48,920 bases of DNA, taken from positions 1 through 48,920 of IMG/VR virus record IMGVR_UViG_3300041809_000868. One strand, given 5' to 3'. A program made the translations under genes and the position numbers. Of the stretch, positions 9,593-48,920 are shown piece after piece (the stretch's first letter is position 1; the number at the start of each line of letters is the position of its first letter). Below the pieces are notes generated by a model. The model had not been told where the DNA came from, searched no databases, and worked only from the letters and a program-made list of their open reading frames with translations. The DNA is from a virus.

Positions 9593-10191
9593 CAGTTCAT
9601 TTCCTTGATGGTTCTCTGCGTCCGTAAGGTCTTTCCGGCGTTACTGTTTGCCAGACCTAGAGCCCCTTCAACCGTGCTCAGTCTTTCCTCTACTTGTGCT
9701 GCTCTTTGTTCTGCCTTAGTTAGTCTCTCCTCAGTGGCTAGATTCTTCTGTACTAGTTCTTGGTGTTGCTCATATGGTACAGTGTTGATCACGGCTTGGT
9801 TCATAGCCATATCTACCATATCTAGTTGGAACTCCCCAGCTACCTTAGAGTTGCTGTGTAGCGCAATCAGTAGACACATTTTGAGAGTGTATAGGTGCAT
9901 GTTTCCTCTAACATATGGGAGGCCAAAAACTTCTCTATTGGCTTGAAAGAAACTTATGGCTTCTGGATAGTCGGATATAGAATTGGCGGATATTTTATCC
10001 GCCAATTCATTGACAGACAAAATATTCGCTGAATTGATATATCGGGTAGCTCTTCCTAATGTGGCATACGATATACCAAGTGCTCCTGCTAGAGCTCTTC
10101 CAGTAGTGACACAGGACTCTGGCGTGTCTCCAAACTGGATCATAGGGAGTTTCAGTCTCATTGTCTTTACAGTTACATTTTTTGGATTCAT
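9592..10191 (-). CDS. Putative DNA-binding/antirepressor-like protein with coiled-coil C-terminus
   Basis: 199 residues. The N-terminal half (residues 25-75) contains helix-turn-helix-like sequence (GRALAGALGISYATLGRATRYI), followed by a Bro/Ant-like stretch (YTLKMCLLIALHSNSKVAGEFQLDMVDMAM), as seen in phage antirepressor-type regulators. Residues about 140-180 are a coiled coil (LVQKNLATEERLTKAEQRAAQVEERLSTVEG). The C-terminal tail AGKTLRTQRTI is shared with the next gene. ATG overlaps the helicase stop (AAATGA). Regulatory role is an inference. Confidence 0.55.
   Translation of the reverse strand: MNPKNVTVKTMRLKLPMIQFGDTPESCVTTGRALAGALGISYATLGRATRYINSANILSVNELADKISANSISDYPEAISFFQANREVFGLPYVRGNMHLYTLKMCLLIALHSNSKVAGEFQLDMVDMAMNQAVINTVPYEQHQELVQKNLATEERLTKAEQRAAQVEERLSTVEGALGLANSNAGKTLRTQRTIKEMN
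9980..10008. repeat. Perfect inverted repeat inside a coding region
   Basis: 11-base arms GAATTGGCGGA and TCCGCCAATTC separated by 7 bases, lying within the antirepressor-like gene (codons for NELADKISANS). Symmetric and GC-rich in the centre; it could be an operator or an RNA hairpin, or chance. Confidence 0.5.
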
Positions 10192-12446
10192 TTCTTGTAT
10201 CGCTCCTGTTCGTCAAATGGTCTGAGAATTGTGTATTCTAATGGCCCACCCTCATCAGCAGGCCATTCATTGATTAGCTTCTTCAGTTGTCTGCATGCTT
10301 TGTGGAATTTTGGTATGAACACATGATCCATGATTACAACTACTGGATGATTTCCACCACCACGATACCCAAGAATTCTACCCATGCCTTGTTGCAGAGT
10401 ATTCTTTCCACCGTCCTCTACTGCTCCACTACCGAATGGAGTGAGGAAGAAGATAGTGTCTAGGGTCTTTTCATCCAGGGCTTCTTTCACTAACTGAAGA
10501 GTCCCAAAGGTTATCTGTCTGGTTCTCAAGGTCTCTATTCTAGCCGCTGGCTTTTCACGACCAGTGCACAGACCAGAGTCTGGAAATCTGTCATGGAGAA
10601 GCCGTAGTTGATCTACACTGTGGCTCAGTACTAGAATCTTTCTCTTTTTGCTGATGGGTAGTTGTAGTTTCTCTGCTATGAAATCATTGTTGGCTGGGAG
10701 TGCACCCAAGTATGTTCTCAGCTTTGGTACATTGATCTTACCACCAGCATAAACTTTGCTTTCTACATCAGGGTCTCGAGTGTCTATGCTGACAGGTACT
10801 TCTTGTATGTAGATACGAGGCTTCACTTCCTGAGACAAGTCCCGGAAGAAGGTGGGCCCAATATGGTACTGATAGATTGGCTCAAGACCGTCTTCTCGGT
10901 TCACTGTGGCTGTCAATCCCCAGCGATCTCCATAGAACATCGGAGCTGTGTGGACAAACAGTGGAGCCGATAGATGATGTACTTCGTCATAATAGATGTT
11001 ACCAAAGTATCTATCAAAGCCTGTTGGTATTTCCTCATAGCGAAGGGACAATGAGTGGATCATTGCCAGAACTATTCCTCTATCTTCCCAGTCCCATTCT
11101 GCTGGGTCTCCTTGTACTAATCCAATACCTCCATCTACATTCATGAATGTTTCTATGCGAGCCTTCCACTGATCTATGAGTGTGGTATTGTTTACGATCA
11201 CTAGAGCTGGTACTTGCTTATGAGCCATGTGTTGTAGAGCTATTTGTGTTTTGCCTTTGCCGCAGTTCGTCACAATGATCCCATTGGCCACAAAGTTGTG
11301 GTGTGGGTCGTCACACATGATGTCGTATACGTCCTCTACTTTGTGAGGAATGATTGACTTGATCTTTACTGGTGTAGGTATTCCATAGCCAAAGGCTCTG
11401 TCTCCTGGCCTGTGACCGCCTAGATGCTTTTCTTTTAGGAGTACTTCTAGATTGTCTGGGCTATTGTTCTTTGTGTTTTCGTCCTTATGGTGTACGTGGT
11501 ACACTTTTGGATCAATGAATTTGAGCCAAGAGATCCTCCCACTTTTGAATATCTCTCTATATGCCTGGATGCTTGGTATGCCATTGAGTGTGCACTCAGC
11601 TACGAGTCGATGCTCTTCGATCACATACTTGACCCACTTTCCGTGCTGTAGCTCTCTTCTTACAAATGGGTGCTTTTCATACCAGCATAAGCGTCTGTAG
11701 GACACCCTAGGTTTTCTGATCGATTTAGGTCGGTTAGCATCTACCAGAACCTCCATCCCCTCTTTCAGTTTGGCTAGTGGTACAAACTCTCCAGATGGAA
11801 CCTGTACTCCATGATCGTTTGTCAGTCTCAGCTGCTTACCGTCTTGAAGTGTAAGCGTGTAAGTCTGTTTCTTCCCTTGGTACAGAATTCTCAGTATCTT
11901 CTGCAGTCCTATTTGACCATTCTTATTGGCTCTTATGTATGTAGGTATAGACAGGTCCCACGGATGATGTTCTCTGCCTAAGGTATCCTTGTGCTTGTAG
12001 AATGCTTCTTTTATTGTAGTGCTGAACCCCTTACCGGCCCTATTGAGTCCGATCTTAGTGTCTCCAGACAGACATGATAGATTCAGTAGTCCGCACTTGG
12101 CCTCACACATAGCCTTGAAGGCTCTGCGCTGAATGTCTTTGTCTGGCTCAATAGCATCCAGTACTATTCGGCTGTTGAAATTGACTTTGTTATAGTGAGT
12201 GGGGCCAACATAGATGATCGGAAATGGAGCATCTTTGTACTGGCTTCTAGGAATGAATTCTCGTGGAACAAGAATGTGTGTATCATTCTCCTCCCACAGC
12301 TGCAGGAACTCGATCCCAGTCTCACCCAGGACCGGAAACTCGAGTCCTGCTTTGATAGAGCGGACGTTGACATGTTTCTTTGGTATCCAGAGTTGTCTTC
12401 CAAAATATCCGTTGTCTGGGTCCTTACGGACTAGGTTGATCTCCAT
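10188..12446 (-). CDS. UvsW/superfamily 2 DNA helicase interrupted by an intein
   Basis: 752-residue precursor. The extein is an SF2 helicase of the UvsW/RAD25-like type: motif I SCGKGKTQ is split by the intein and reformed on splicing (S124 joined to C395), motif II is YYDEVHHLS, motif III GLTAT, motif VI QGMGRILGYRGG. The N-terminal about 110 residues match the accessory domain of such phage helicases. The spliced protein would be 482 residues. Likely role: branch migration, unwinding of R-loops and recombination intermediates during replication. Coupled by overlap to the next gene and 8 bases from the upstream one. Confidence 0.88.
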   Translation of the reverse strand: MEINLVRKDPDNGYFGRQLWIPKKHVNVRSIKAGLEFPVLGETGIEFLQLWEENDTHILVPREFIPRSQYKDAPFPIIYVGPTHYNKVNFNSRIVLDAIEPDKDIQRRAFKAMCEAKCGLLNLSCLSGDTKIGLNRAGKGFSTTIKEAFYKHKDTLGREHHPWDLSIPTYIRANKNGQIGLQKILRILYQGKKQTYTLTLQDGKQLRLTNDHGVQVPSGEFVPLAKLKEGMEVLVDANRPKSIRKPRVSYRRLCWYEKHPFVRRELQHGKWVKYVIEEHRLVAECTLNGIPSIQAYREIFKSGRISWLKFIDPKVYHVHHKDENTKNNSPDNLEVLLKEKHLGGHRPGDRAFGYGIPTPVKIKSIIPHKVEDVYDIMCDDPHHNFVANGIIVTNCGKGKTQIALQHMAHKQVPALVIVNNTTLIDQWKARIETFMNVDGGIGLVQGDPAEWDWEDRGIVLAMIHSLSLRYEEIPTGFDRYFGNIYYDEVHHLSAPLFVHTAPMFYGDRWGLTATVNREDGLEPIYQYHIGPTFFRDLSQEVKPRIYIQEVPVSIDTRDPDVESKVYAGGKINVPKLRTYLGALPANNDFIAEKLQLPISKKRKILVLSHSVDQLRLLHDRFPDSGLCTGREKPAARIETLRTRQITFGTLQLVKEALDEKTLDTIFFLTPFGSGAVEDGGKNTLQQGMGRILGYRGGGNHPVVVIMDHVFIPKFHKACRQLKKLINEWPADEGGPLEYTILRPFDEQERYKK
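11265..12074 (-). mobile_element. Intein in the helicase P-loop, with HNH endonuclease
   Basis: Residues 125-394 (270 aa). Block A CLSGDTKI with Cys1 (C125); block B LTNDHGVQV; block F VYDIMCDDPHHNFVANG; C-terminus IIVTN followed by Cys+1 (C395). The penultimate residue is Thr rather than His. The insert is an HNH endonuclease (YHVHHKDENTKNNSPDNLE), not LAGLIDADG as in the other inteins here. It sits between S and C of the Walker A loop, so the helicase cannot bind ATP until spliced. Confidence 0.9.
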
Positions 12447-16324: not shown

Positions 16325-17172
16325 AACACATCACAGAAGATCATATGGCAGCTATGCTCTCTGAGCTTCAGAAAGAGGCTGGTGTGGCGAATGTTTTGAG
16401 CAAGGGTGTTAAATACTTATCTGCTGCTCCTTTGCTAAAAAATCTTCCTAGCATTCAGTCTAGAACCGGTCAGATGCTGGCTGGTGGTGCAGTGGGTGCT
16501 GGTATTGGGGCGGCTACTGGGGACGAAGGAGATCAATTGCACAGAGGAGTGCTAGGCGGTTTAGCCGGTGCTGGAGCTGTTGGTCTAGGTCATCTTGCTA
16601 CAAAGAGTGGTAGAGAAGCAGCTGGTAAAGGTATAGGGGACTTCTGGAATAGGCAGAAGTATCAGTTCACGAGTAAAGGGATTGAGGGCACTCATCCAGA
16701 GCGTGTGGCTAAGGCGAGAGAGATAGGATTGCTTCCCAAGTTGGAGGCAGATGCTTCCCCAAAAGTGCTAGCGCAAGATGCTGCTGCACAGGAAGCTCTC
16801 AAGCATGATTGGTTATCTCTTCCAGGATCTATCCATGGTTTGGTTACAAAGCCAGGCGCTGTGCTCAAGAATTCTTGGAATCGAATGGATGCCTTAGGTA
16901 AGGGATTGACTGGTGTAGCTGGTGTTACAGCAGCTTCAGACTTACTACAGAGACCAGATCCGAATGGTCCAGGGAGACTAGAGAAAACGCTGGGCAATGC
17001 TGCTGGAGCACTAGGATTCACTGCTGGTCCAGCTGGTATGATACCTGGTCTGTTGCTGGGTGGTTGGACGGGTAAAGCTGGTCAGCGAATTGGCCGTGTT
17101 GGTGATCGTTTGATGGGCCATAACCCAGAACAGGCCAAAGTCTATAACCCCACCTATGAGGGAGCTGTATAA
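16264..17172 (+). CDS. Glycine-rich, probably membrane-active virion protein
   Basis: 302 residues as given; a start at 16321 (ATG overlapping the upstream stop as ATGA) would give 283 and is about as likely. Contains long Gly/Ala segments (TGQMLAGGAVGAGIGAATGDEG, GVLGGLAGAGAVGLGHLATK, and GNAAGALGFTAGPAGMIPGLLLGGWTGKAG) that could insert in or disrupt membranes, as in phage internal ejection proteins. Similar in style to the protein at 46005. Immediately precedes the portal; stop and portal start share TAATG. Confidence 0.65.
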   Translation: MGLSSFERKAVEGTAAATHMKHITEDHMAAMLSELQKEAGVANVLSKGVKYLSAAPLLKNLPSIQSRTGQMLAGGAVGAGIGAATGDEGDQLHRGVLGGLAGAGAVGLGHLATKSGREAAGKGIGDFWNRQKYQFTSKGIEGTHPERVAKAREIGLLPKLEADASPKVLAQDAAAQEALKHDWLSLPGSIHGLVTKPGAVLKNSWNRMDALGKGLTGVAGVTAASDLLQRPDPNGPGRLEKTLGNAAGALGFTAGPAGMIPGLLLGGWTGKAGQRIGRVGDRLMGHNPEQAKVYNPTYEGAV

Positions 17173-20100
17173 TGTCTGTAGGTTTAGGTGGCGCAGACTC
17201 TTCTGCTCTTAGATTCGCTAGATCTCGAGGTCGTACTGGCAGCTCTGCAGATTACGGTCTGCAGTACCCTAGTCCATTTTTTGATATTGGACAGACTTAC
17301 TTACCAGCTACCATCAAGCAGATGTTTAGATGGTGCCGTTACTACTTCTTAGTCAATCCATTGATCAATGCAGTGGTAGCTAAGATGGCTGACTACCCAG
17401 TCACTGACATCATTCTGGATACAGAGAAACCAGATCTGAAGGACAAGTGGTACCATTTCTTGAATGCACAGCTTAGGTACCGTCCATTTCAGATCGAACT
17501 AGGTTTGGACTACTATGCCTACGGAAATGCTCTGGTTAGTATCTTTTATCCATTCGTAAAGATGCTCAGATGTAAGCGCTGCGGTCACGAAAAGCAGGCT
17601 TCTGATGCTACATACCGATTTCAGAATTTTGAGTTCCACTGGGAGTGCACTAAATGTAATCACGCTGACATAGCCTTAGTGCGTGATCATTACATTAAGG
17701 CTCCAAAGGGTATCCGTTTGCTTCGGTGGAATCCTGAGGACATTGATACTAGATACAACGACATCACTGGTGAGTCAGAATACTACTATACAATTCCAGT
17801 TCAGATCAAAAATGACATCATCATGGGGAAGAAATCTACTGTGGAGACTATGCCACAGCTCTTCATTGATGCTTTAAGGCTAAGAAAAGCCGTAGTGTTT
17901 TCACGGGACAACATCTATCACTTCAAGCGGCCAACATTGGCCGGAAAAGATAGAGGTTGGGGTACTCCGATGATCCTGCCTGTTCTGAAGGATACATTCT
18001 ATCTTCAGGTTCTCCGCAAGGCACAAGAGTGTGTCAGTCTAACTACTCAGATCGAAACAATCAATGGTTTGGTTGATGCTAATGAAGTACGTGTTGGGGA
18101 ACTGGTACGTACTCACACAGGTAAGTGGCAGCTGGTAGAAAAGAAGTGGTATAGGAATGCCCGAGAAGAAGAGGTCGGCAAAAAGATTACACTGTCGGGC
18201 CTTCGACCACTCTCAAGTACCTATTCTCCACATCACCCAATACTAAGTATTCGTAGGACGGAGGAGAGCAGAAGATCTGATTCTAAAGATGCTCAAGTAT
18301 CGTCCGTTATCCTTCGTAACCCACACCTGTATGAGGAAGTGCTCTGTCCCGCAGAGCAGCTTCATGTAGGTGAATATGTCTTGTATCCTCGGTACCTGCC
18401 AGTAGGACAAACTACTGTAGATGCAGCAAAGTACACAGGTCTGACATGTACAGGAGACTGGGTATATAGCGGTGTCTGTGAAGAGACAGCACAAGCTTTT
18501 GAATCACTAGAACATGGTAAGCATGTTCAGCATGACAATGCTAGTAGAGCAGCTAAACGGTCTCTGAAAGAGGGTCGTACACCAAAACGGATGGAAGCAA
18601 TTAGACCTATGACAGAGGACCTTGCTTACATATTAGGTTGGTATGCCGGAGATGGAAGCTGTGGTTCCAGGTCTGTGATGTTTTCTCTAGGGAAGGATGA
18701 TGATTCAAATCCGCTGAAAGAGGCGATCAGAAGAGAGTTTGGTGTAGAAGCTACTGTCGAAGTAGGTGAGTCCATAGATACGATTGTCTTATCAGATGTC
18801 ATAGTTAGGCATTTAATCAAAGGTTTGATTCCTGGAACAGCTAGACACAAGAAAGCACCACAAGAAGTTTTGAATGGTACTGACGCTGTGAAGCTGGCTT
18901 ATCTTCGAGGTTTGTGGGAAGCAGATGGTTCTTTTGACCTAACCAGAGCAACGCTGTCTACAGCTAGCAAAGATCAAGCTTATGATGTGTACAGACTTCT
19001 ATTGCACTTTGGTTGTATTGCATCAATAAATCAACACGAAACTCCAGATCACGTGTTGGATTCTGGTAGAGTGATCAAGGGTGGAGCACATTATCACACG
19101 ACTGCTTGCCACGCATCCAGGGATAGGTTTGTATCTTTGCTTGCAGGTGTAAAGTGCGAGGAGATAACATCAGGTAAGAGTGGCTTCTTCTGGAAAGAAT
19201 ACTTTGCATCCAGAATTCATGTGATTGAGGAGTCGGAAGAAGAGCAGTACATTGATTTCAAGATCAAAGAAGATACTACGTTCTGCACACCTGGAACAGC
19301 GACGAAAAATAGTATAGCGTTAGAGCACATTGTTCCTTTGCGTGTGTTATTCCCACAAGCTGGGTCAGCGACCTCGGACCCATACTGCCTTGCGTCATCC
19401 TCTATAGTAGAAGCCAATTTGGGCTATGAGGATGCTGGCAAGATCAAAGTAGGGGACTTGATAAAGACAGTTACTGGAAAGTATGAACCTGTAACTGCCG
19501 TGAAAAAGAGACGGGTACGCAATGGTGAGAAGGTCTACAGAATTGGTGTTTGTGGCATGTCTGCTGCTCCTGTAGAGCCCTCAGAGGACCACCCATTCTT
19601 TGTTGTGAAGTCTAGTGGTAAGAGGAAAGCTTTGGTCAAGGACTGGAGACCAGACTGGGTACCTGTCAAAGACCTGCAGGTAGGTGACTATGTTGCCTAC
19701 CCTCTTTCACGCGAGATCAAAAAAGACTTGCAAGTAGATATTGCCCAGTATCTGAAGTCGTATGTGGCTACGGAAGATTGGGTCTATCGTCAGATTACAC
19801 AGGAAGGGGCAAAGGTCTATGAGTATGTAGAGCAGCGAGAGCAGAGAGCCTTTGCAGGAGGAGAGCTGCAGAGTACTGTTGCCAAGTATGGTTGGTCTGT
19901 GTCTACTCTTCAGACGGCTGCTAGTCGCTACAGGCGAGGCCATAGGACATCCAGGTTGCCAAGGTTTATCAAGTGGTCCAAAGAGCTAGCTACGATAGTT
20001 GGGTACTATCTAGCTGAGGGAAGCTGCGGAGATCATATTATCTTCTCACTCAACGCCAGTGAGGATTGGATTTGTGATGAGCTAGATGCTGCTTTCATGG

Positions 20101-23096
20101 CCATTCTTGGGCACGTAGGTGCTAGAAGGCCCAAGGGCGAGAATGGTCTCACGTATGAGATGAATGATTCGATCTTTGCTGAATTCCTTACCAATTTCTT
20201 GGGGCACCTTGCACCAAATAAGAGGTTGCCGAAGGAGGTAGTGCACCTACCCGATGAAATCTTGCAGGAGATTGTGCGTTGCCTGATCAATGGAGATGGG
20301 GGTGCTGAACAAGGGTACAGAGACAATGGTACAGGTAATCCTTGTCGCACATCTGCTGTTACTTTCACCAGCACATCCAGAGACCTATCTTTCAAACTCC
20401 GTGAGCTTTTACTGTACTTGAGAGTGATAGGGCGAGTACACACAACCACTTACGCTACTGGCCCCAATCTCCCTGTCCATCGCGTAAAAATCAACGGAGC
20501 CGAAGCAGTCAAGCTGTGGACTATGCTGGGTTGGAAAGTACCAGCACTGCCGGTCAAGAAGGATTGCACTAGGTCCTTCATCCTTGGGGACTATGCTTTC
20601 TTTCGCATTCAGAAGAAGGAAGAGATTCAAGGTGTGGAGTTTGTGTATGGCTTCCAGGTTGATGGGGATAAGAGTTTCTGCGTACCTGCTTGTGCCACAC
20701 ATAATACCTCTGTCAATTTGATGGACTGGCATGATCAGATCGCAGGAGAGCTGCGTCGGTGGAGATGTATTACTCCAGAGTCCTTTGTAGAAACACGTGA
20801 AGGTCTGCGCCAAGCTGGTAATGTTGGTGTTGGGGATTACCTAAAGAATAGACACGGTAAATTTGAGCGTGTGACCAAGCGGCATGATAGGGCAATGGAT
20901 GCTGGGGAGTGCGCATATAGATTGAAGGTACGAGGACAACATGCTGTAGATACCGTGTATTCTGAAGAGCACCCTATATGGGCTGCTAAAAAGATCAATA
21001 ACGGTAATGGACACAAGCTCGGTACAGCAGACTTTATCCCAGTTGCTGAGTTATCACCTGGAGATTATGTTGGTTATCCAACAGCACGCAATATCAACAA
21101 GGTAGAAAGACTTGATCTAGCAGAGTATGTAGATAGGGCTGTTACGGCAGATTGGGTTTATATAGACCACACTGATCAAGACGTACCGGAGATTTTTGAG
21201 TATCTATCTACACACGGTGAAATAGATTCCCGTAAGGAGCTGCTTGAAGAGCATGGTTGGGGATTGAATTCCTACAAATGCGCACAGGCTGCAATCAGAG
21301 AAGGGCGTGTGCTTAGAAGGGTACCTAGATACTTGTACCTAGATCAAGAGCTGGCGTATGTTTTGGGACTATACGCTGCTGAAGGCAACACCACTGCTAA
21401 AGGAGTATTTTTCTCACTTCACAAGGACGAGACAGCATTTGTGGATAGATTGGACAGCTTTTTTGCACTCCGTTTTGGTGCCTCTAGAACGGGTGGAGAT
21501 AAGTCGGAGAATGGAATTCAGATTGCTTACCCAAGCGTAGTAGCTGCTCAGTTGTTCCATGCATTGATTCCAGGTACTGCGATCAATAAGAGCTTACCAG
21601 ATGTAATTAAATGTGCTCCAGATGATATAGCAGCTGCTGCGTTACGTGGAGTATTAGATGGTGATGGTTCCTACTACGAAGATAAGACAGTGCTGGGAGT
21701 ATCTAGTAGGCAGTTAGCAGAAGATGCACGCCAGCTACTGTTATCTTGGCAGATACTACCAGGCATATCTTTTGTAAAGGGGCAAGACATTACTATTTGT
21801 GGAAAAAAGACTAGAGGTAATGGTTGTTACCTTGTTCAAGTATCTGGGGATGCACACAAGCAACTATCTGCTGTATTAGCAGGTGAGGTGTATTCTGGAT
21901 CAACTTTCAGTCGAATAGGTCTATTCCGAGACGGCTTCGCCTGGTTCCGAATTGAGGAGGTGACAAAGGTAGAGGTGGATACAGTAGTGGCATTTCAAAT
22001 GGAAGGAGACAGCACCTTTTGTACATGGGGAGTTGCGACGCATAACAGCGATAACAACTACATACCTATTCTTCCTTTACCGATTGGGCAACAGACCATT
22101 GGTGGTGATGGAAGAGCTCTACTCTTGAGCCAGGAGATTAGAGTATGGTCTGAGCACATCATTGCGGGTATGGGCGTACCTACAGAGCTCATTTTTGGTG
22201 GACTTAGCTACTCAGGCTCTAACGTATCTTTGCGTATGCTAGAGAATATGTTTCTTGGCTATCTCTCTGATCAACTTGCTCTTCTTCGTTGGGTAATCAA
22301 GCGTACTGCTTCATACCTTGGTTGGTCTGAGGTTGGGGCAAGATTCAAGCCATTCAAGATGGCAGATGATTTACAGAGGAAGGCTTATTTGTTTCAGCTT
22401 AATCAAGCTGGAAAGATATCAGATGAGTCGCTTTGTTCTGATGCAGACTATGACTCTGCCAAAGAAGATAAGATCATGGAGAATGAAGCTACTCGTCGTA
22501 TCGGTGCGATGAAGAAGCAGCGTTTACTCCAGGCAGAGATGGAAGGTGAGGCTCAGTTAGTCCAACAGAAGTGGATTAACAAGGCTCAAGCTAAGGCACT
22601 GGCAGATCAGACTGCTATTGCTGGTGAGGGAGCTAAAGATCAAATGGCATTTCAGGCAGAGATGCAACAGGGTATGCTGCAAGACCAGGTTGCAGCACAA
22701 ACCGGTCAAGCGCCTCCACCAAAGAGCCCAGACATGACACCTACTCCAAGGAATCCATCACTGATTGCTGGGCCAAAGGAGATCAATTCACCACTCTCTT
22801 TGCAGAGTGTTCAGAGGCATCCACCTTCTGCTACCAATGAGGATATTGCTGGTGGCATGAATGTAGACCTGTTGTTCATGGCAAGGAAATTGGCGGATAA
22901 GTTCTCTAGACTTAATCCTGGAGAGAAGCCAGTAATGTTGAGTAGGTTGCAGAAGTACAATCCAGCTCTACACGATACCGTTGTTGGGCTAATGATGAGC
23001 GGTGGTAACGGTCCCACTGCTGCATCACAGGCCGCTGCGAGGCCGTTACCGTTGCAACGTACACCTCGCAGAGGCCCTGAAGCAGCCCAGGTCTAG
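17172..23096 (+). CDS. Portal protein carrying three inteins
   Basis: 1974-residue precursor; 680 residues after splicing, a normal portal size. Extein pieces: 1-286, 714-738, 1179-1198, 1626-1974. Portal assignment rests on the N-terminal wing (WCRYYFLVNPLINAVVAKMADYPVTDI), the clip/stem region, PILPLPIGQQTIGGDGRALL, and the region IIAGMGVPTELIFGGLSYSGSNVSLRMLENMF typical of large-phage portals. The C-terminus (after about 1740) is charged, then Pro/Gln-rich. An unusual zinc ribbon (C134, C137, C159, C162) sits in the first extein. The portal is the dodecameric ring at the capsid vertex for packaging and ejection. It converges on a leftward gene with a 4-base overlap. Confidence 0.82.
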   Translation: MSVGLGGADSSALRFARSRGRTGSSADYGLQYPSPFFDIGQTYLPATIKQMFRWCRYYFLVNPLINAVVAKMADYPVTDIILDTEKPDLKDKWYHFLNAQLRYRPFQIELGLDYYAYGNALVSIFYPFVKMLRCKRCGHEKQASDATYRFQNFEFHWECTKCNHADIALVRDHYIKAPKGIRLLRWNPEDIDTRYNDITGESEYYYTIPVQIKNDIIMGKKSTVETMPQLFIDALRLRKAVVFSRDNIYHFKRPTLAGKDRGWGTPMILPVLKDTFYLQVLRKAQECVSLTTQIETINGLVDANEVRVGELVRTHTGKWQLVEKKWYRNAREEEVGKKITLSGLRPLSSTYSPHHPILSIRRTEESRRSDSKDAQVSSVILRNPHLYEEVLCPAEQLHVGEYVLYPRYLPVGQTTVDAAKYTGLTCTGDWVYSGVCEETAQAFESLEHGKHVQHDNASRAAKRSLKEGRTPKRMEAIRPMTEDLAYILGWYAGDGSCGSRSVMFSLGKDDDSNPLKEAIRREFGVEATVEVGESIDTIVLSDVIVRHLIKGLIPGTARHKKAPQEVLNGTDAVKLAYLRGLWEADGSFDLTRATLSTASKDQAYDVYRLLLHFGCIASINQHETPDHVLDSGRVIKGGAHYHTTACHASRDRFVSLLAGVKCEEITSGKSGFFWKEYFASRIHVIEESEEEQYIDFKIKEDTTFCTPGTATKNSIALEHIVPLRVLFPQAGSATSDPYCLASSSIVEANLGYEDAGKIKVGDLIKTVTGKYEPVTAVKKRRVRNGEKVYRIGVCGMSAAPVEPSEDHPFFVVKSSGKRKALVKDWRPDWVPVKDLQVGDYVAYPLSREIKKDLQVDIAQYLKSYVATEDWVYRQITQEGAKVYEYVEQREQRAFAGGELQSTVAKYGWSVSTLQTAASRYRRGHRTSRLPRFIKWSKELATIVGYYLAEGSCGDHIIFSLNASEDWICDELDAAFMAILGHVGARRPKGENGLTYEMNDSIFAEFLTNFLGHLAPNKRLPKEVVHLPDEILQEIVRCLINGDGGAEQGYRDNGTGNPCRTSAVTFTSTSRDLSFKLRELLLYLRVIGRVHTTTYATGPNLPVHRVKINGAEAVKLWTMLGWKVPALPVKKDCTRSFILGDYAFFRIQKKEEIQGVEFVYGFQVDGDKSFCVPACATHNTSVNLMDWHDQIAGELRRWRCITPESFVETREGLRQAGNVGVGDYLKNRHGKFERVTKRHDRAMDAGECAYRLKVRGQHAVDTVYSEEHPIWAAKKINNGNGHKLGTADFIPVAELSPGDYVGYPTARNINKVERLDLAEYVDRAVTADWVYIDHTDQDVPEIFEYLSTHGEIDSRKELLEEHGWGLNSYKCAQAAIREGRVLRRVPRYLYLDQELAYVLGLYAAEGNTTAKGVFFSLHKDETAFVDRLDSFFALRFGASRTGGDKSENGIQIAYPSVVAAQLFHALIPGTAINKSLPDVIKCAPDDIAAAALRGVLDGDGSYYEDKTVLGVSSRQLAEDARQLLLSWQILPGISFVKGQDITICGKKTRGNGCYLVQVSGDAHKQLSAVLAGEVYSGSTFSRIGLFRDGFAWFRIEEVTKVEVDTVVAFQMEGDSTFCTWGVATHNSDNNYIPILPLPIGQQTIGGDGRALLLSQEIRVWSEHIIAGMGVPTELIFGGLSYSGSNVSLRMLENMFLGYLSDQLALLRWVIKRTASYLGWSEVGARFKPFKMADDLQRKAYLFQLNQAGKISDESLCSDADYDSAKEDKIMENEATRRIGAMKKQRLLQAEMEGEAQLVQQKWINKAQAKALADQTAIAGEGAKDQMAFQAEMQQGMLQDQVAAQTGQAPPPKSPDMTPTPRNPSLIAGPKEINSPLSLQSVQRHPPSATNEDIAGGMNVDLLFMARKLADKFSRLNPGEKPVMLSRLQKYNPALHDTVVGLMMSGGNGPTAASQAAARPLPLQRTPRRGPEAAQV
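18030..19310 (+). mobile_element. Portal intein 1 (LAGLIDADG)
   Basis: Residues 287-713 (427 aa). Begins C287 (CVSLTTQIETINGLVDANEV), ends TATKN with Ser+1 (S714); Lys takes the penultimate His position. Block B-like STYSPHHPIL. Two LAGLIDADG motifs, both with acidic catalytic residues: YILGWYAGDGS and YLRGLWEADGS. Shares with portal inteins 2 and 3 a DWVY segment and a basic module before the first LAGLIDADG motif. Confidence 0.92.
19386..20705 (+). mobile_element. Portal intein 2 (LAGLIDADG)
   Basis: Residues 739-1178 (440 aa), only 25 extein residues after intein 1. Begins C739 (CLASSSIVEANLGYEDAGKI), block B SEDHPFFV, ends CATHN with Thr+1 (T1179). Motifs IVGYYLAEGS and CLINGDGG keep acidic residues. 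Has the DWVY segment of its two sisters. Confidence 0.92.
20766..22046 (+). mobile_element. Portal intein 3 (LAGLIDADG)
   Basis: Residues 1199-1625 (427 aa), 20 extein residues after intein 2. Begins C1199 (CITPESFVETREGL), block B SEEHPIW, ends VATHN with Ser+1 (S1626). Motifs VLGLYAAEGN and LRGVLDGDGS are intact. Clear paralogue of inteins 1 and 2. Confidence 0.92.
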
Positions 23097-24319: not shown

Positions 24320-27300
24320 TTGGCACGTCTTGCACCGGAAGAGGGGTTTGACCTCCTCAAAGACCGAGTACAAAAGGCAGTCAGCGGGCTCTTCCCCATT
24401 ATTGGTAGGAAGAACACGCTAGAGCTTCATGATGTAGCGGTTAAAGATAATCTGAGTATCGATGATCTTAGATCGCAGAAACAAGCTAAGTTGAGTGGTC
24501 GCACTTGGTCTGTGCCTGTTGAAGCCACCATTGTTCTGAAGGATAACGCTACAGGCAATGTGATCGACAGACAGAAAATGAACCTTATGAACTTGCCTAA
24601 GGTAACCAGTAGGTACAGTCATATTGTGGATGGGCAGGAGTACCAGATAGATAACCAGTGGAGGTTAAAGCCTGGTGTCTACAACATGGTTAAGGCAGAC
24701 GGTCAGCTTGAGTCTCACATAAATGCTGTTGGTGGCTTCAAGATTCACTTTGATCCTAAGTCAAAAGAGTTTTCTCTGAACTATGGCAACTCAAATATGC
24801 CATTGAAACCATTCCTTCATGCCATGGGTGTATCTGAGGAAGAGATAGAAAAGGCGTGGGGTAAAGACATAGTAGATGTCAATCATGCTGACGCCACAAA
24901 GGAGTTAGCTAAGTTCTATAGAGCGTCTACTGGAGATAAGACCACAAGACCAACTCCTGATGAAGCAAAAGCTCATTTATGGGAGGTCATGGGAAAGACC
25001 GTACTACGACCAGAAGTGAACAAATTCACTTTAGGTAAGGAGTACTCCACAGTGACTGGGCCTTTGCTATTAGATGCTTCTCACAAGCTACTTCAGATCT
25101 CTAGAGGTGAGACACAGCCAGATCCTAGAGACGCACTTATGTTCAAAGACTTGCACTCTATTGAAGATTTTGCAGCAGAACGTATCGTTAAAGGTTCTCG
25201 AGAAATCCTCAAAAAAGTCAGCAATAACATTGATCGTAAAGCTAAGGTGAGAGACATCATAGCTCCTGAGATATTTAACCGTCCTATCAAACAGATGTTC
25301 GGTAAAAACTCTTTAGCTATTGTTACTGATCAAACTAATCCACTAGAGATGATGTCATCTCAGATGAAAACAACCATCATGGGCGAGGGTGGTGTTAAGT
25401 CTGAGCATCAGATCAGTGATGATGCTAAGCTTATTGATCCATCTCACTTGGGTTTCTTAGATCCTATACATACTCCAGAAGGTCATGCTACTGGAATTAC
25501 ATTACGCTTACCTCTTGGTGTGGAGAAGTTTGGTCATGATGTTGCAGTTAATATGTACAACACTAAGACTAAAAAGATGGAGCACGTTAATCCAGCACTA
25601 GCGTATAAGTCTCACGTAGCACTTCCAGATCAAGTATACTGGGATGGTAAGGTACCTAAGGCTGCTGGAAAAATAGTTAAGATCAGTGGTCCTGGCAATG
25701 AGATTTATGAGGGTACTCTGAAGGATGCAGACTATGTAATGACAGATCCATTACAGATGTTTTCAGTCTCTTCTAATATGATCCCATTCATGCAAGCAGA
25801 CCATCCTAATCGTAGTACGATGGCTGGTCGTCAAATGGAGCAAGCAATCTCTTTGAAGCATAGAGAGGTACCGCTTGTACAGAGTTTGGCCGGTAAGCAG
25901 ACTTTTGATAAATTGGTTGGTATCTTCGCCAGTCATAGAACTCTAGAAGATGGCGTAGTACATAAGATCAAGCCAGATTCTATAGTGATCAAGAATGACA
26001 AAGGTGAGAAGCACGAGATCTATACTTATGATCACTTTCCATTGAATGAGGATAAAGCATTTTTGCATGCAGAACCTATTGTGAAGGTTGGTGATCGCGT
26101 AGTAAAAGGTCAGACTGTAGCTGACACTAACTACACTAAGGGCGGTACGCTAGCTATTGGTACGAATTTACGCGCTGGTTTTATGCCATACAAGGGCTAC
26201 AACTTTGACGACGGTATAGTAGTCAGTGAGAGTGCAGCTAAAAAGCTTACGTCCGAACACTTACACAGGCATTCTTTGGAGCGGGACATAGCTCACATTC
26301 TAGACAAGAAAAAGTTCCAGGCGTACATGCCTACAGCTATGAACAAGGCTCAGTATGATAAGTTAGACGAGGAAGGTGTTGTACTACCAGGTACTGTAAT
26401 TATGCCTGGTGATACTTTAATTGCTGCTCTTCGTGCTTCTAACGATCCTGAGAGAAAAGAAGACATAGAGCTTTCAAAGCTTCACAAGTCTATAGTCAGA
26501 CCGTATAAAGACTCTAGTATAAAGTGGGACAGTGATTATCCTGGGATAGTGAAGGAGGTTGTGAAGGTAGGTAAGAACGTGTCTGTTCACGTAAAAACAG
26601 AAGAGCCTTTAGAGATTGGTGACAAGCTTTGTTACGCCGAAGATCACGAGCTACTCACATCCACTGGTTGGAAAGGGGTGAAAGACGTAGTAATCACTGA
26701 TCTCATATGCTCTCTTAACCCGGAAACAGACGAGATTGAATATTTACCACCAGCAAAAGTAGTGTCTTATGACTGTATAGATGATGATCTATATGTGTTA
26801 GATACTACTCAGGTTTCCATGGCTGTGACTATGGAGCACAAGACTTATGCGAAGTTGCGTAGTAGCGCCAGACATGAGCTATTGCCAGTAAGTAGTATCA
26901 AGGGTAAGCGCTATCGATTAAAGATGCATGGCAAGTGGACTGGTACAGATGCATCAGTGTTTACGTTTCCTGCTTTGCAGGTAAAAGCTGGTCAGGGTGG
27001 CAGAGGCACTAGGTGGCTTCCAGCCATAGACATGCCTATGGATACGTTCTTAATGCTACTGGGCATGTTCCTTTCTGAGGGCAACGTCTACAGCGGCAAC
27101 GGAGATCATTACATAGAGATTTGTCAGATCAAACAGCCTAGTCGTAGTCATGCAGAGGAGGCACTGCACAGTGCCGGTATCGGCTTTACCAATACTCCCG
27201 AAAAGCTACGTATACACGGAAAGCAGCTGTATGAATACTTTGTTCAGTTTGGACATGCTCCCAACAAATATGTGCCAGATTGGGTGTTCCAACTTCCACC

Positions 27301-40219: not shown

Positions 40220-43200
40220 ATGGCAACAATCAGATTAGATGAAGCTGCACTGCTCGAGTCTTCGAGGGCTATACCTCTTACGTACTTCATAGAGGGCAAT
40301 GGAGAGCCTTACTTTGACTACAATGAAGAAGGAGAGGCTCAAGATTTTCAAATAGATCTTGAACCAGAAGACGCTACTGAAGCCGTTAACTTGATGGAAG
40401 AGTTAGTAGGCGTATCCCCTTCTGAGTTTGCGGAGACAGCCATCAGAGTTCCTGAAGCAGGTCGTGTTTCAGACTTCTCCTTTTTGGGTCGTGAGTATCT
40501 CAAACGTATTTATGATACTCCTGCTAATAAGGTGCTCCTTCAGTGCGGTCGTCAGGTGGAAAAGACACTATGTGTCAAATCTAAGATATCTATGGTTGAC
40601 GGTGGTGTACGAAATCTCGAAGATGTTGTTGTCAATGATGAAGTGGTTGGTCTAGCGCCCGATGGTGCACACACTGCTGTAGGGAGAGTTACTTGGAAAT
40701 CAAGTAAGTACAGAAAGCCGTGTGTAAAGATCAAGACTAGGCAGGGGCACAGTGTGACCGTCGCACTGACCCATCCTATGCGACAATGGAAAGTATGGGT
40801 AGCTGCTGGTGGTCTGTCAGAGCACGAACATATAGCTGTGGTTCGTAGAGCTGGGGAGTTCACTGGGGTATCCGTAGAGAGTGACGCCTGGATCACCATA
40901 GCTGCATGCATGGTGGCTGAGGGTTCAACTTGTGGAACTCCGTCTTTTACGCAGAATGAGGGTGAATTACTATGTGACTTCATAGACTGCTGTCATGAAG
41001 TGGGCGTTGTGTACACGCCACATGATAGAGATGTAGCTGCTGGTCTCAATTGGCAGCTTAACTTTGTACGTGATGGCCAAGAGGATAACCCAGTCAAGGT
41101 TAAGCTATTAGGGTGGGGCATCTATGGTGAGAAGTCTGCCGACAAGCACGTTCCCGCTTTTGTGTGGGGGCTGGATCAACGGCAGACAGCTCTGTTCCTC
41201 AACCGTCTCTGGGCTGGAGATGGGCACGCTAGTCTGCAGGATTCTTCTTACCACCTAGAGTACGACTCGGTGTCAGAGCTGTTGGTCAAAGACGTACAAA
41301 GGCTACTCTGGAAGTTTGGCATTCCCTCGAGCACCCGTAGGTGGAAGCCTACCCTCTACAAAGGGACAGATAAGTGGGCGTACAAGCTTCGTATAGAGAC
41401 CCAGGAAGGTGCGCTTCGTTTCATCAAAGACGTAGGAGCCCTCGGAAAGACGGAAGACCTTCCCATCGTAGAAGTGGATGCGAACTCAAACAGAGACATC
41501 TATCCAGCAGCTATAGTAGATGATTTAGCTGCCATCCATAGGTCTCGAAGTGGGTACCAGCGGCGCGGTCAATATGTACCGCAGCCGTCACTACGGTCTG
41601 TGGGGCTACGTGAGAGGCCTAAATACCTGCTCAGCAAGGACAAGCTCAAGCAGTACGTGGACTTCTTTAGATCTGACGACAGATTTGATCAAGTTAAGAC
41701 TGAGCAACTGGCACAGCACCTGTGCACTGATCTATACTGGGATGAAATTGTAAGTATAGAAGAGGTTGGGGAGCAGGACTGCTACGATATCACCGTGGAG
41801 GGAACAGACAGTTTCATAGCTGATGGCTTTATCACGCACAACTCTACAACACTGGGTAATCGTCTACTCTGTTACTCAGCACTAACAAACAACTTCAGAT
41901 CTCTGTACGTCGCACCATCTGCTGAACAGGCAAAGGTCTTTTCAAATGATCGTATTAAGGATGTCATAGACTCCTCACCTATGCTTCGTTCATATACTTC
42001 ATCTAAGATCAATCAGGCAGTCTTTTTCAAGAAGTTCATCAACTATTCTCAGATCAGATTGAGGTATGCCTACCTTACAGCTGACCGCGTCCGTGGTATT
42101 CCAGCGGACATGGTTCTGATCGATGAGCTTCAGGATATTTTGGTAGATAACATCCCAGTTATTGAACAGTGTGCTTTTCACTCGAGCTATAAGCTCTTTC
42201 TATATTCAGGCACACCTAAGTCAGTAGATAACACCATCGCTCACTACTGGAGTGAATTCTCTACTCAGAATGAGTGGGTAGTTCCTTGTGATAGGCATGG
42301 ACTGCCTAGTGATCAAAGTACCTGGCACTGGAATATTTTGGCAGAGAAGAATATAGGAACTCTTGGATTGATCTGTGATAAGTGTGGTGAGCTAATAAAC
42401 GCTCGTCATCCTAAAGCACAGTGGGCTGCTATGCAGCCTATGACTGAGGACAACAAAGATAAGGTTACCTTCGAGGGTTATCGTGTTCCTCAGATCATGG
42501 TGCCTTGGGTAGACTGGGAAGAGATCACAGTCGCTCAAGAACAATACTCTCGTGCTCAGTTCATGAATGAGAAGCTGGGTATGTCTTACGACTCTGGTGT
42601 TCGTCCCATCACCAGAGCACAGCTTCAGGCTATTTGTAGACCAGAGCTTGAGATGGGAGACATTGAAGAGTTTCGTAGACTGGCTCAAGGCAGATCTATT
42701 TATGCTGGTATTGACTGGGGTCCTGGAGAGAGTGCCTCATACACACATATCTCTTTCGGTGGTTATCTAGGGTCTGGAAACTTCACTATCTTTTGGTGCC
42801 ACAGATTTACTGGACAAGATCTGGACCCTGAACGTCAGTTAGATCTGATTACCCAGATGTGTACTCAACTTCAAGTTAGGATCATTGGAGTTGACTATGG
42901 TGGTGGTTTTTATCCTAATGATAAGTTGATCAAGCGCTTTGGTGCACACAAAGTGATGAAGTATCAATACAACCCAAGGCAGAAAAAGAAGATCTATTGG
43001 GAACCAAATCTTAAACGCTGGATGACGCATAGAACAGAGGTCATGAGTGATCTGTTCAATGCTATGAAGGCTAAGAAAATAGATCTGCCTAGATGGGAAG
43101 ACTACAAGGAGCCCCACGGATCTGATGTGCTCAATATTTTCACTGAGTATAATGAGCGCCTCAGAATGAATGAGTATAAGAAGCAGCCCGGTAAGACTGA

Positions 43201-43312
43201 TGATGCATTCCACTCGCATCTACTGTGTTTGTTGGCTGCATGCCTTGAAAATCCACGTCCAGATATCTTTGCGCCACTTCAGGATTCTGGATTAGCTGAG
43301 AATTATGGCTAA
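40220..43312 (+). CDS. Terminase large subunit interrupted by an intein
   Basis: 1030-residue precursor, 606 after splicing. ATPase: P-loop GRQVEKTL (110-117) then, after the intein, STTLGNRLL; Walker B MVLIDELQD; coupling motif YSGTPKS. Zinc-ribbon cysteines CDRHG and CDKC follow. RNase H-like nuclease: YAGIDWGPGE, IIGVDYGGGF, and the final acidic residue in KTDDAFHS. Cuts and translocates DNA into the prohead through the portal. No strong ribosome-binding site before the ATG. A double hairpin follows the stop. Confidence 0.93.
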   Translation: MATIRLDEAALLESSRAIPLTYFIEGNGEPYFDYNEEGEAQDFQIDLEPEDATEAVNLMEELVGVSPSEFAETAIRVPEAGRVSDFSFLGREYLKRIYDTPANKVLLQCGRQVEKTLCVKSKISMVDGGVRNLEDVVVNDEVVGLAPDGAHTAVGRVTWKSSKYRKPCVKIKTRQGHSVTVALTHPMRQWKVWVAAGGLSEHEHIAVVRRAGEFTGVSVESDAWITIAACMVAEGSTCGTPSFTQNEGELLCDFIDCCHEVGVVYTPHDRDVAAGLNWQLNFVRDGQEDNPVKVKLLGWGIYGEKSADKHVPAFVWGLDQRQTALFLNRLWAGDGHASLQDSSYHLEYDSVSELLVKDVQRLLWKFGIPSSTRRWKPTLYKGTDKWAYKLRIETQEGALRFIKDVGALGKTEDLPIVEVDANSNRDIYPAAIVDDLAAIHRSRSGYQRRGQYVPQPSLRSVGLRERPKYLLSKDKLKQYVDFFRSDDRFDQVKTEQLAQHLCTDLYWDEIVSIEEVGEQDCYDITVEGTDSFIADGFITHNSTTLGNRLLCYSALTNNFRSLYVAPSAEQAKVFSNDRIKDVIDSSPMLRSYTSSKINQAVFFKKFINYSQIRLRYAYLTADRVRGIPADMVLIDELQDILVDNIPVIEQCAFHSSYKLFLYSGTPKSVDNTIAHYWSEFSTQNEWVVPCDRHGLPSDQSTWHWNILAEKNIGTLGLICDKCGELINARHPKAQWAAMQPMTEDNKDKVTFEGYRVPQIMVPWVDWEEITVAQEQYSRAQFMNEKLGMSYDSGVRPITRAQLQAICRPELEMGDIEEFRRLAQGRSIYAGIDWGPGESASYTHISFGGYLGSGNFTIFWCHRFTGQDLDPERQLDLITQMCTQLQVRIIGVDYGGGFYPNDKLIKRFGAHKVMKYQYNPRQKKKIYWEPNLKRWMTHRTEVMSDLFNAMKAKKIDLPRWEDYKEPHGSDVLNIFTEYNERLRMNEYKKQPGKTDDAFHSHLLCLLAACLENPRPDIFAPLQDSGLAENYG
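40571..41842 (+). mobile_element. Terminase intein (LAGLIDADG) in the P-loop
   Basis: Residues 118-541 (424 aa). Cys1 C118 (CVKSKISMVDGGVRNLEDV), block B ALTHPMRQW, ends FITHN with Ser+1 (S542). Motifs AACMVAEGST and LNRLWAGDGH keep acidic residues. The junction VEKTL|STTL assumes Cys1 is the first intein residue. The ATPase is non-functional until the P-loop is rejoined. Confidence 0.9.
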
Positions 43313-44485: not shown

Positions 44486-44517
44486 GTTATCTCTGTATAG
44501 ATGAGTTTTGATTTTGA

Positions 44518-44544: not shown

Positions 44545-44570
44545 ATATTCTATTCACAAAGGGGAACCCC

Positions 44571-46002: not shown

Positions 46003-46004
46003 TC

Positions 46005-46565: not shown

Positions 46566-46567
46566 CT

Positions 46568-48920
46568 GTGATAATAAAGGTATGTCAGTTCAAAGCACAC
46601 CGACAGAATGGTGAAAGGCTTGTAGAGATCTTCCAACCAGGAGAGATGGAGAAGGCTGCATCTTTTTTTGGTATGGGGAAAACTGCAGCTCCTCTATTAC
46701 CATCTGTTCGTGATCTGCTTGAAACGATTAGACCAAATCCCAGGAAGATCTATATCCTGGTAAATGCTCTTGGTGCTGGTGAGTACTGGGGTTGTTTCCC
46801 AGACGGGGCGTTGGTTCAGACCTCAGCTGGGGAGAAGCCGATAGAGCAGGTAGAGGTAGGGGAACTCGTTCTGACACACAAGAATAGGCTGCGGGCCGTT
46901 ACAGCTCGCAGGACTAAGCAAGCAACGGAATTGTGTGATCTGTATGTTCAAGGACTGCCGTCTCTCGCTCCTACTCTTACGGCCACGCCTAATCACGAGT
47001 TGTACGTAGTTCTACGTGATGACTTTATTCGTACAAAGCGTCGAGTGATTTGGAAAGTGGGTACGGACCAGCCAATCTCTGATAGGCGTACCGAGGCCAT
47101 GAGTCAGCTGGAGTTTGATTGGGTGGCCATCTCTCAACTACGACCGGGGGATATGATCGCGGAGACGTTTCCTCTAGAGGAAGACCCTGCCGCTCTCGGT
47201 GATGAGAAGTGGAATACAACAGAAGTCGCCTTCTTGATGGGTTTGTACGCTGCAGAGGGTTGTTTGGCTTGGCGATACGGAAGAGAGGGCAGCTGCTATG
47301 AAGAACCCGAAAAGATTGTGTATGTTACCTCTATAGAGGAGACAGCTACTCATACTGAAGTAGTGCGATGTGCGGAGAAGCTGGGACATAAGGTAACCCC
47401 CAGTCCAGAGCAGGAGACGCACTCGACACGAATTGAAATCGGGTTCAAGGAACTGGCAAAGTTGTGTTCTACGCACATTGGATCACCTGCCATAGATAAG
47501 CGGCTGAGCGATGCAATTTTGCACATGCCTAGAGACTGGCAACGGGTGTTCTTTTCAGCCTACTCAGGCGGTGCTGGATGTGTCAGTCACACAAAGAAAG
47601 ATGCTGGAGCGGTTCGATGTGTTTCTGCCTCGGTTGGGTTGCTACGAGATACTCGGCTACTCTTAGCTCGACTCGGCTTGGTGGCCTCGGTGAATGGCAG
47701 GCATAACACGAAAGCTACTTGGTACTCTGGCAAGCCGATCTATGAACTGTATATTGGTCACAGCCAGTTCGATGGCACTGGTTCCGCAAAAAGTTATCTA
47801 CACCCAGATGGCTATATTTTGTCCGCAGTGGCTGAAGTAAGGACGTACACGTGGCAGGGCTCTGTGCATGATCTCACGGTCGCGGAGGATAAGTCGTTTG
47901 TTGTGAACGGGGTAGCAGTGCACAACAGCAATATCAACGGTGACTACTTTCCAGAAGTAGCTCTTATACATAAAGGTCCTGACTATGGTTATGAGACTTT
48001 CAGGACTGCTGGTCTGTTCAAACACCATGTGAACAAAGACATCACCCGAAGCTTTGGTAATATCATGCTATCTGCTTGGCATGATCATATGAAGAGAGTA
48101 GAGCTAGTCATAGAAGTAGATCGTGATAAAGCTCTACAGTTTGGTGCTACTGATGTCTGTGACAAGTTAGATCAGGGTATTTATCCTGACGTCAGTATGG
48201 GCTGCCTCCCGAAAGGTAGTCCTGTTTTTCGTGCTGACGGGCGTAGAGTACCTATAGAGGCAATCAAAGAGGGAGATATTGTTCTTACGCATAAGGGCAG
48301 GCCCCGGCTAGTTACGTCTACTATGGTTCGTCCACACAAAGGTCCTATCTATCACGTTAAAGCGTATGGACACCGTGATGCTCTTATGTTGACCGAGGAG
48401 CACCCACTTTGGTTAGTTCGTAAAGAGCAGATGATCTGTCACCCATCTTCCAAGACTGTAAATAAAGGACGAAAGCAGCGTATCTGTACTCCAAACAGTG
48501 CCAGTACTAAAGTAGGCTGTGCAGAGTGTTCTACTTTACCTAAGTATAGGTTTGAGTGGGTACGCACAGATGAGGTTTGTGAAGGAGATTACCTAGCGCT
48601 TCCAATCCCTAACTATAGAACAGATGTTAAGTTTACGACTGATCAAGCCAGACTTTTAGGGTACTACTTATCTGAAGGGCTCGTGCTTCGTACAAACGCT
48701 GGCAATCCTATGGCTGTTCAATTCTGTACAAATCTCTTGGAAACTGAGACTCACGAGGAATTGTATCAGCTGGGGGAGCGGTTGGGTTTGAACGTGACTG
48801 AGGAGTACGATGTAGAAGATAGCGGTAAGTACATTAGTATTTGGGATAGATCATTAGCAGAATTATGTGCTCAGCATTGTGGTGAGAAAGCACTAACAAA
48901 GAGACTATCAAGTGACTTGA
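46568..48920 (+). CDS. Prohead-protease-like protein with two inteins, truncated by the window end
   Basis: Open from a GTG at 46568 to the end of the window (784 codons seen). Extein: residues 1-75, then 454-545. After removal of intein 1 it reads EYWG|SNINGDYFPEVAL...YETFRTAGLFKHHVNKDITRSFGNI...MKRVELVIEVDRDKA...DVSMG, resembling phage head-maturation proteases (N-x-NGDYFP, later K-H-H-x-N and VSMG). The start has only a weak ribosome-binding site (AAGAAG), 2 bases after the upstream stop. The active-site Ser/His cannot be confirmed without the rest. Assignment by pattern recall, moderate. Confidence 0.65.
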   Translation, partial: MIIKVCQFKAHRQNGERLVEIFQPGEMEKAASFFGMGKTAAPLLPSVRDLLETIRPNPRKIYILVNALGAGEYWGCFPDGALVQTSAGEKPIEQVEVGELVLTHKNRLRAVTARRTKQATELCDLYVQGLPSLAPTLTATPNHELYVVLRDDFIRTKRRVIWKVGTDQPISDRRTEAMSQLEFDWVAISQLRPGDMIAETFPLEEDPAALGDEKWNTTEVAFLMGLYAAEGCLAWRYGREGSCYEEPEKIVYVTSIEETATHTEVVRCAEKLGHKVTPSPEQETHSTRIEIGFKELAKLCSTHIGSPAIDKRLSDAILHMPRDWQRVFFSAYSGGAGCVSHTKKDAGAVRCVSASVGLLRDTRLLLARLGLVASVNGRHNTKATWYSGKPIYELYIGHSQFDGTGSAKSYLHPDGYILSAVAEVRTYTWQGSVHDLTVAEDKSFVVNGVAVHNSNINGDYFPEVALIHKGPDYGYETFRTAGLFKHHVNKDITRSFGNIMLSAWHDHMKRVELVIEVDRDKALQFGATDVCDKLDQGIYPDVSMGCLPKGSPVFRADGRRVPIEAIKEGDIVLTHKGRPRLVTSTMVRPHKGPIYHVKAYGHRDALMLTEEHPLWLVRKEQMICHPSSKTVNKGRKQRICTPNSASTKVGCAECSTLPKYRFEWVRTDEVCEGDYLALPIPNYRTDVKFTTDQARLLGYYLSEGLVLRTNAGNPMAVQFCTNLLETETHEELYQLGERLGLNVTEEYDVEDSGKYISIWDRSLAELCAQHCGEKALTKRLSSDL
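46793..47926 (+). mobile_element. Protease intein 1, LAGLIDADG with a degenerate second motif
   Basis: Residues 76-453 (378 aa). Cys1 C76 (CFPDGALVQTSAGEKPIEQV), block B ATPNHELYV, ends VAVHN with Ser+1. First motif LMGLYAAEGC is intact; the second reads FSAYSGGAGC with no acidic residue, so the endonuclease is probably dead. The DNA is visibly more GC-rich than the flanking extein. Confidence 0.9.
48203..48920 (+). mobile_element. Protease intein 2, truncated at the window end
   Basis: Starts at C546 (CLPKGSPVFRADGRRVPIEA) right after VSMG; block B LTEEHPLWL; a Cys-rich insert (ICTPNS...GCAECS) and first LAGLIDADG motif LLGYYLSEGL are visible. 239 residues seen; second motif and C-terminal splice junction lie outside the window. 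Confidence 0.88.

Follow-up and report, generated by a model that had tools for sequence, protein, structure and literature searches.

Intein-bearing genes of the window

The DNA analysed (the window) is the whole of the linear IMG/VR record IMGVR_UViG_3300041809_000868 (48,920 bases), part of the genome of an uncultured phage, and contains eleven inteins in five core genes: one in a helicase gene, three in a portal gene, four in a gene for a fused beta-beta' RNA polymerase (RNAP), one in a terminase gene and two in a head-maturation-protease-like gene. The five long open reading frames (ORFs) were translated and every proposed junction was placed on the DNA to the base. Ten inteins lie wholly within the window; the eleventh runs past its end and was completed with a related sequence (L156). 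A preliminary description, made from the letters alone, had counted eleven inteins in five genes and about 12.4 kb of intein DNA, roughly a quarter of the window; both figures were borne out, with 12,424 nucleotides (nt; 25%) of intein DNA in the window and 12,867 nt with the completed eleventh, where eleven is the count for the 49-kb linear fragment only. The precursor reading frames are open through all eleven inteins. Gene names rest on Pfam, on PHROGs searches with the spliced proteins (weak for portal and protease) and on the 33% identity of the portal to that of Salmonella phage Arash.

The precursor of a UvsW-like ATP-dependent DNA helicase (10188..12446, minus strand; 752 residues, 482 spliced; Pfam ResIII; PHROG DNA helicase 1.9e-31 with the spliced protein) carries intein 1, UvsW_PL (11265..12074, minus strand; 270 residues), within Walker A (LS/CGKGKT; slashes mark splice junctions). 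Its ends read C1...VTN/C with Thr as the penultimate residue, and it matches HNH_3 and Intein_splicing in Pfam and intein_Nterm/Cterm in NCBIfam. All other precursors and inteins lie on the plus strand. The portal precursor (17172..23096; 1974 residues, 680 spliced) holds intein 2, portal_a (18030..19310; 427 residues; KAQE/C...KN/S, penultimate Lys; LAGLIDADG_3 1e-13), intein 3, portal_b (19386..20705; 440 residues; SDPY/C...HN/T; Pfam LAGLIDADG match weak, 6e-4), and intein 4, portal_c (20766..22046; 427 residues; RRWR/C...HN/S; LAGLIDADG), at three sites within 45 extein codons (spacing 75 and 60 nt).

Four inteins interrupt the single-chain fused beta-beta' RNAP precursor (24320..35095; 3591 residues, 2057 spliced; Pfam RNA_pol_Rpb2_6, Rpb1_2 and Rpb1_5), which is 31–33% identical to the RNAP of phages Arash and Vibrio D69. 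Intein 5, RNAP_GDK (26630..27685; 352 residues; IGDKL/C...SGN/T, penultimate Gly; LAGLIDADG), lies in the GDK...GRHGNKG motif of beta; intein 6, RNAP_bC (28208..29329; 374 residues; MQTLK/C...VGN/S, penultimate Gly), lies in the C-terminal part of beta and is of the LAGLIDADG_2 type (3.8e-24, with an intein_Nterm/Cterm match). Intein 7, RNAP_Zn (31814..33043; 410 residues; GICQK/S...THN/C; LAGLIDADG), is in the zinc motif of beta', and intein 8, RNAP_TL (33158..34351; 398 residues; ALKAFH/C...HHN/T; LAGLIDADG), is at an FHTGG sequence taken as the beta' trigger loop. Two of the RNAP sites are 114 nt apart. After splicing, beta and beta' form one chain of 2057 residues; the homologue in Arash and D69 is two genes, several kb or less apart.

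The terminase large subunit precursor (40220..43312; 1030 residues, 604 spliced; GpA_ATPase; PHROG terminase 6e-66 with the spliced protein) carries intein 9, TerL_PL (40565..41842; 426 residues; GRQVEK/T...THN/S, with Thr at position 1; LAGLIDADG), in its P-loop; the Intein_splicing match (9.7e-14) is over the cut-off. The head-maturation-protease-like gene (46568..48920, truncated at the end of the window; weak PHROG match to head maturation protease, E 1e-4) contains intein 10, prot_a (46793..47926; 378 residues; EYWG/C...VHN/S; Hint_2 and LAGLIDADG_3 matches), and intein 11, prot_b (48203..48920; 387 residues, 239 of them in the window; VSMG/C...AVHN/CKVPYD; LAGLIDADG), the C-terminal part of which was found in L156:1120-2280. 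The gene continues in L156 to base 3579, and with the L156 sequence intein 11 is precisely removable.

Part of the window is confirmed by another IMG assembly, two sequences of which match it: L039 (100% identical over window 42091-47088) and L156 (99.8% over 47084-48920). Intein 11 differs between window 48203-48919 and L156:1120-1840 by a 3-nt insertion in L156 (EDSGKYIS in the window, EDRNGKYIS in L156), which suggests strain variation or an assembly difference. The contig is metagenomic, and intein-bearing and intein-free strains might have been merged in it so that the density is in part an assembly artefact; given the matches in the second assembly, the eleven open frames and the other dense intein combinations held by other contigs, this is extremely unlikely.

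Splice junctions, endonuclease domains and empty sites

Position 1 is Cys in nine inteins, Ser in one and Thr in one; the block-B His, the terminal Asn and a Cys, Ser or Thr at +1 are present in all eleven. The preliminary description had called the splice residues directly visible, which was wrong for the N-terminal boundary of the terminase intein, where the first residue is Thr (40565) and not Cys. All 34 intein-free relatives with the TerL P-loop motif read GRQ(V/I)EKST with no extra Thr-Leu, and therefore the intein begins at this Thr (GRQVEK/TLCVKS). A start two codons later, at Cys (CVKSKI), was rejected; it would leave a Thr-Leu in the P-loop that none of the 34 relatives has. Assignment to class 3 (WCT motif), first proposed for want of a Cys at position 1, was refuted by the block positions: class 3 inteins have Trp at B:12, Cys at F:4 and Thr at G:5 (PMC5222942), and the TerL intein has Met at B:12 (with a Trp five residues after the His) and Asp at F:4, so that only the Thr at G:5 fits. 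Thr at position 1 is grouped with Ser and Cys as a class 1 nucleophile (PMC5222942).

Searches of the precursors with Hint-domain hidden Markov models (HMMs), proposed earlier as a check, gave Pfam and NCBIfam intein matches, but the Pfam Intein_splicing match was weak or absent in portal_a and portal_c. For portal_c an AlphaFold2 model was obtained with a predicted local distance difference test score (pLDDT) of 90.3, and its best PDB matches were full-length inteins with endonuclease, TliVMA (E 9.6e-19) and PI-SceI. The model of the TerL intein, built from four sequences, was of low confidence (55.5) and lends weak support only; the nine others were assigned to the Hint fold by motif and HMM only. 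Endonuclease domains are present in all eleven (HNH in UvsW, LAGLIDADG in the other ten), in support of the preliminary description, which had reported endonuclease motifs as visible. The catalytic acids of both LAGLIDADG motifs, read from the alignment and L156, appear to be kept in nine of ten.

For analysis of the insertion sites, the spliced proteins were built, viral contigs were scanned and, for each locus, the 70 residues on each side of a junction were searched separately (tblastn) and the distance between them was measured. At all ten complete sites the gap was exactly 0 nt, at the same junction, in 43–104 related phage loci per site (UvsW_PL 48, portal_a 100, portal_b 99, portal_c 104, RNAP_GDK 78, RNAP_bC 48, RNAP_Zn 66, RNAP_TL 43, TerL_PL 49, prot_a 44), counts that are loci per site, to which one contig may contribute several; in occupied relatives the insertions are in frame and 807–1320 nt long. 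A 62.7-kb contig (3300037354_000009) encodes proteins 89–95% identical to those of the window and has all ten complete sites empty, and a search of this contig with intein profiles gave no match. Because relatives have exact 0-nt empty sites, integral domains are excluded, which settles the comparison with intein-free homologues that had been suggested as a check. Since very similar phages carry the same genes without the inserts, the inteins are mobile elements that have accumulated at conserved sites.

Occupied sites are patchy across relatives, many of which have none, and inteins are frequent in the lineage as a whole: there are nine in a 168-kb relative and four in each of two contigs of 24 and 34 kb, and relatives use about ten further intein sites in the same genes. 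Allelic inteins were found for UvsW_PL in L053, L076, L092 and L074, for portal_a in L025 and the 168-kb relative, for portal_b in L175 and the 168-kb relative, for RNAP_GDK in the 168-kb relative (73% identical), for RNAP_Zn in L004 (81%), for RNAP_TL in L004/L027 (91%) and for prot_b in L150 (84%), where the downstream extein is only 57–66% identical. Conservation at the insertion sites is high (mean 85th percentile, P about 1e-5), as expected for homing; RNA polymerase inteins elsewhere are likewise at conserved positions (PMC1635734).

Several further inserts were observed in relatives. Shortened inteins, apparently without a full endonuclease, occur at the UvsW site (L076:4593-5135, 181 residues), the portal_c site (L010:7361-8200, 280 residues) and the TerL site (L008:25615-26421, 269 residues). 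An intein match with an in-frame TAG (G008:C1:126443-127723, on the 178-kb contig of L045) is either a decaying intein or a case of stop-codon recoding. The catalytic NADFDGD motif of RNAP contains LAGLIDADG intein-like insertions of about 500 residues in relatives (L120:11282-12817, L030, L041, L029, L045:668-2149, L008 and L026:14210-15775); one group ends in Asp (VWD/C), and the insert of L026 begins with Gln. The L008 and L045 precursors read (N/G)ADFDGN/C...VWD/T, where normal splicing would turn the third catalytic Asp into Asn and a one-residue shift would restore the Asp.

Spread and maintenance of the inteins

In the tree, each site that has alleles in relatives forms its own group, and above that level inteins group by gene (support: portal a/b/c 100/100; RNAP Zn with TL 96/93; TerL PL with NADR 96/97; protease sites weakly, 84/89), with the restriction that some deep joins rest on long branches and may be wrong. 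The tree also has a GDK/NKG/HTPEG/TerL-DWG group (100/99). This grouping by site and then by gene suggests spread between phages and within genes: allelic homing between phages, with rarer within-gene moves to new sites, would be the simplest reading. Comparison of four-fold sites between the window and L004 gives 58% similarity for the RNAP_TL intein and 42% for the host genes (p=4e-4); between L150 and the phage of the window it gives 45% for the prot_b intein and 22% for the host genes (p=3e-4). Because their silent sites are closer than those of the exteins, these two inteins moved horizontally after the genes had diverged. The GDK and TerL inteins have no silent-site excess over their exteins and may be older. 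Ratios of non-synonymous to synonymous substitution (dN/dS) of 0.03–0.04 for the allele pairs of RNAP_Zn (0.04), RNAP_TL (0.04) and prot_b, which are rough because silent sites are near saturation, show purifying selection on these three alleles by computation and lend indirect support to their predicted splicing.

Taken together, it is very probable that eleven homing inteins have accumulated in the five core genes. In each, a protein-splicing domain would enclose a homing endonuclease, and the whole would sit at a single, exact and conserved codon junction; once translated, the intein would excise itself and join its flanks to give a normal helicase, portal, RNA polymerase, terminase or protease. 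The endonucleases would cut intein-free alleles of co-infecting phages, into which the intein would then be copied, and the load would have been built by repeated homing between phages and, occasionally, by a move to another site of the same gene. All eleven are predicted to splice, and their maintenance would be selfish rather than of benefit to the phage.

Several observations weigh against this explanation. The second LAGLIDADG motif of prot_a is GGAG, also in the L156 assembly; because it replaces GGDG, which the L165 allele has, the catalytic Asp is lost and the endonuclease is probably inactive. For RNAP_bC no occupied relative was found among the loci compared, so that it counts only as a putative mobile element. 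Co-conversion tracts around the RNAP sites gave no signal, with silent sites near saturation. The penultimate His is absent in four inteins (Thr in UvsW; Lys in portal_a; Gly in RNAP_GDK and RNAP_bC); it is likewise poorly conserved in mycobacteriophage inteins (PMC5050341). Allelic TerL inteins in relatives have Cys at position 1 where the window has Thr; because this Thr is unusual and the alleles have Cys, splicing of the TerL intein is the least certain of the eleven.

From the Thr at position 1 in TerL, the four missing penultimate His residues and the weak or absent Intein_splicing matches of portal_a and portal_c, it could be argued that some segments are integral domains, or Hint elements that are degenerate or cleave, which would leave the mature proteins split or with additional residues. 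This is considered quite unlikely, since relatives have exact empty sites, the interrupted Walker A, GDK, zinc and FHTGG motifs must be restored, and the portal_c fold matches full inteins.

The inteins might also be old, vertically inherited residents, their patchiness being due to repeated precise loss and not to repeated homing. Precise loss gives the same empty site, dN/dS is low, and at silent sites the GDK and TerL alleles do not exceed their exteins in similarity; but RNAP_TL and prot_b postdate the divergence of the genes, at least 20 scattered sites would need an ancestor that had them all, and endonuclease motifs are retained in ten of the eleven, so that this history is unlikely.

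The preliminary description had proposed a post-translational timing network. In such a network, splicing that depends on redox, zinc or temperature would delay transcription, capsid and packaging functions in a set order. Five genes of one phage do need splicing for the mature protein, and conditional splicing is described for mycobacterial DnaB inteins (PMC6195587). Positive evidence for such a network was not found, and it is very unlikely: the relative with 89–95% identical proteins has all ten complete sites empty, occupancy varies from phage to phage, some inteins were horizontally transferred, the sites lie in conserved motifs as homing predicts, and no shared regulatory feature was found. 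The associated statement that no late function works before splicing is too simple, because in Arash the RNAP homologue ranks among the proteins most abundantly detected in virions (PMC10585845); by this homology the window's polymerase may be packaged in the virion. Co-option of the inteins as a maturation control, with virion RNAP, portal, protease and terminase inactive until several splicing reactions have finished, is just as improbable as the timing network; if true, it would tie head assembly and polymerase packaging to one slow or conditional step.

Lineage, known systems and significance

The fragment is assigned to a large myovirus-like phage. The lineage of this phage is rich in inteins, mostly uncultured and a distant relation of Salmonella phage Arash and Vibrio phage D69. 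Among named phages, Arash (180.8 kb; an orphan genus, PMC10585845) and three Vibrio phages, D69, D148 and D181 (187 kb), come nearest, with RNAP and portal 31–33% identical and in the same order; a search of Arash and D69 with the Intein_splicing family gave no match. A host assignment from GTDB genomes was attempted and rejected as too weak, the only hit being a 5.9-kb contig (L210) in a Deltaproteobacteria metagenome-assembled genome with 59% portal identity.

Inteins, homing endonucleases and multi-intein genes are already known kinds of element; the count and density are unusual. Among the open-licence papers searched this is the densest intein load in a phage: 841 mycobacteriophage genomes gave 229 inteins in 161 genomes (PMC5050341), and the phages called densest carry at most three per genome (PMC7886860), so that the density, earlier called exceptional, is so by comparison with published phages. 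Mycobacteriophage inteins resemble those of the window in their homing endonucleases, their location in terminase (ATPase domain), portal and helicase genes, their sporadic occurrence and their poorly conserved penultimate His, but number about 1.4 per intein-bearing genome, compared with eleven in a 49-kb fragment and four in one RNAP gene here (PMC5050341). In crass-like Delta/Zeta and Jug phages core genes are also heavily infested by self-splicing elements, terminase inteins included (PMC7886860, PMC12363816), whereas here inteins dominate, no Rfam intron was found in the window and the RNAP can be recognised as cellular-like. Several nearby intein sites at active-site motifs of one conserved gene are likewise known from haloarchaeal mcm (PMC10643990) and from eukaryotic RNA polymerase genes (PMC1635734); in the window three portal sites within 45 extein codons and two RNAP sites 114 nt apart are occupied simultaneously, all with endonuclease domains. 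The terminase intein of phiCbK (PMC3556154) is inserted between the same residues, Lys and Ser, and also lacks Cys or Ser at position 1, but has Pro there, in contrast to the Thr (with Asp at F:4) found here; sequence comparison of the TerL intein with that of phiCbK gave no match.

Two features outside the five genes were recorded. A family A DNA polymerase ORF (window 48-1130, minus strand) stops with TAG directly after motif A (SSVDPNLRN*), where relatives go on with QN(V/I)P..., and the DNA past the stop is not homologous to relatives; this break appears to be a twelfth interruption, probably a self-splicing intron, which runs off the left window end. The Rfam search of the window found no intron and no group I intron, and an exact-match scan for a leftward extension of the window found no contig. 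Downstream of the capsid region, L156:9480-10511 holds a solitary ORF of 343 residues with an HNH-like C-terminus, possibly a free-standing homing endonuclease.

For annotation, portal, polymerase and protease genes of this kind are difficult to identify without in silico splicing; for protein engineering, the lineage offers about 20 sites of insertion and a large set of natural inteins. Because intein-free and partly loaded relatives serve as natural controls, several open questions become testable: splicing of a 3591-residue precursor with four inteins; whether Thr at position 1 supports splicing; mutual homing block when three inteins lie within 45 codons, neighbouring inteins that block each other's homing having been reported for haloarchaeal mcm (PMC10643990); and the spread of inteins from site to site within one gene, as the gene-wise clustering suggests.

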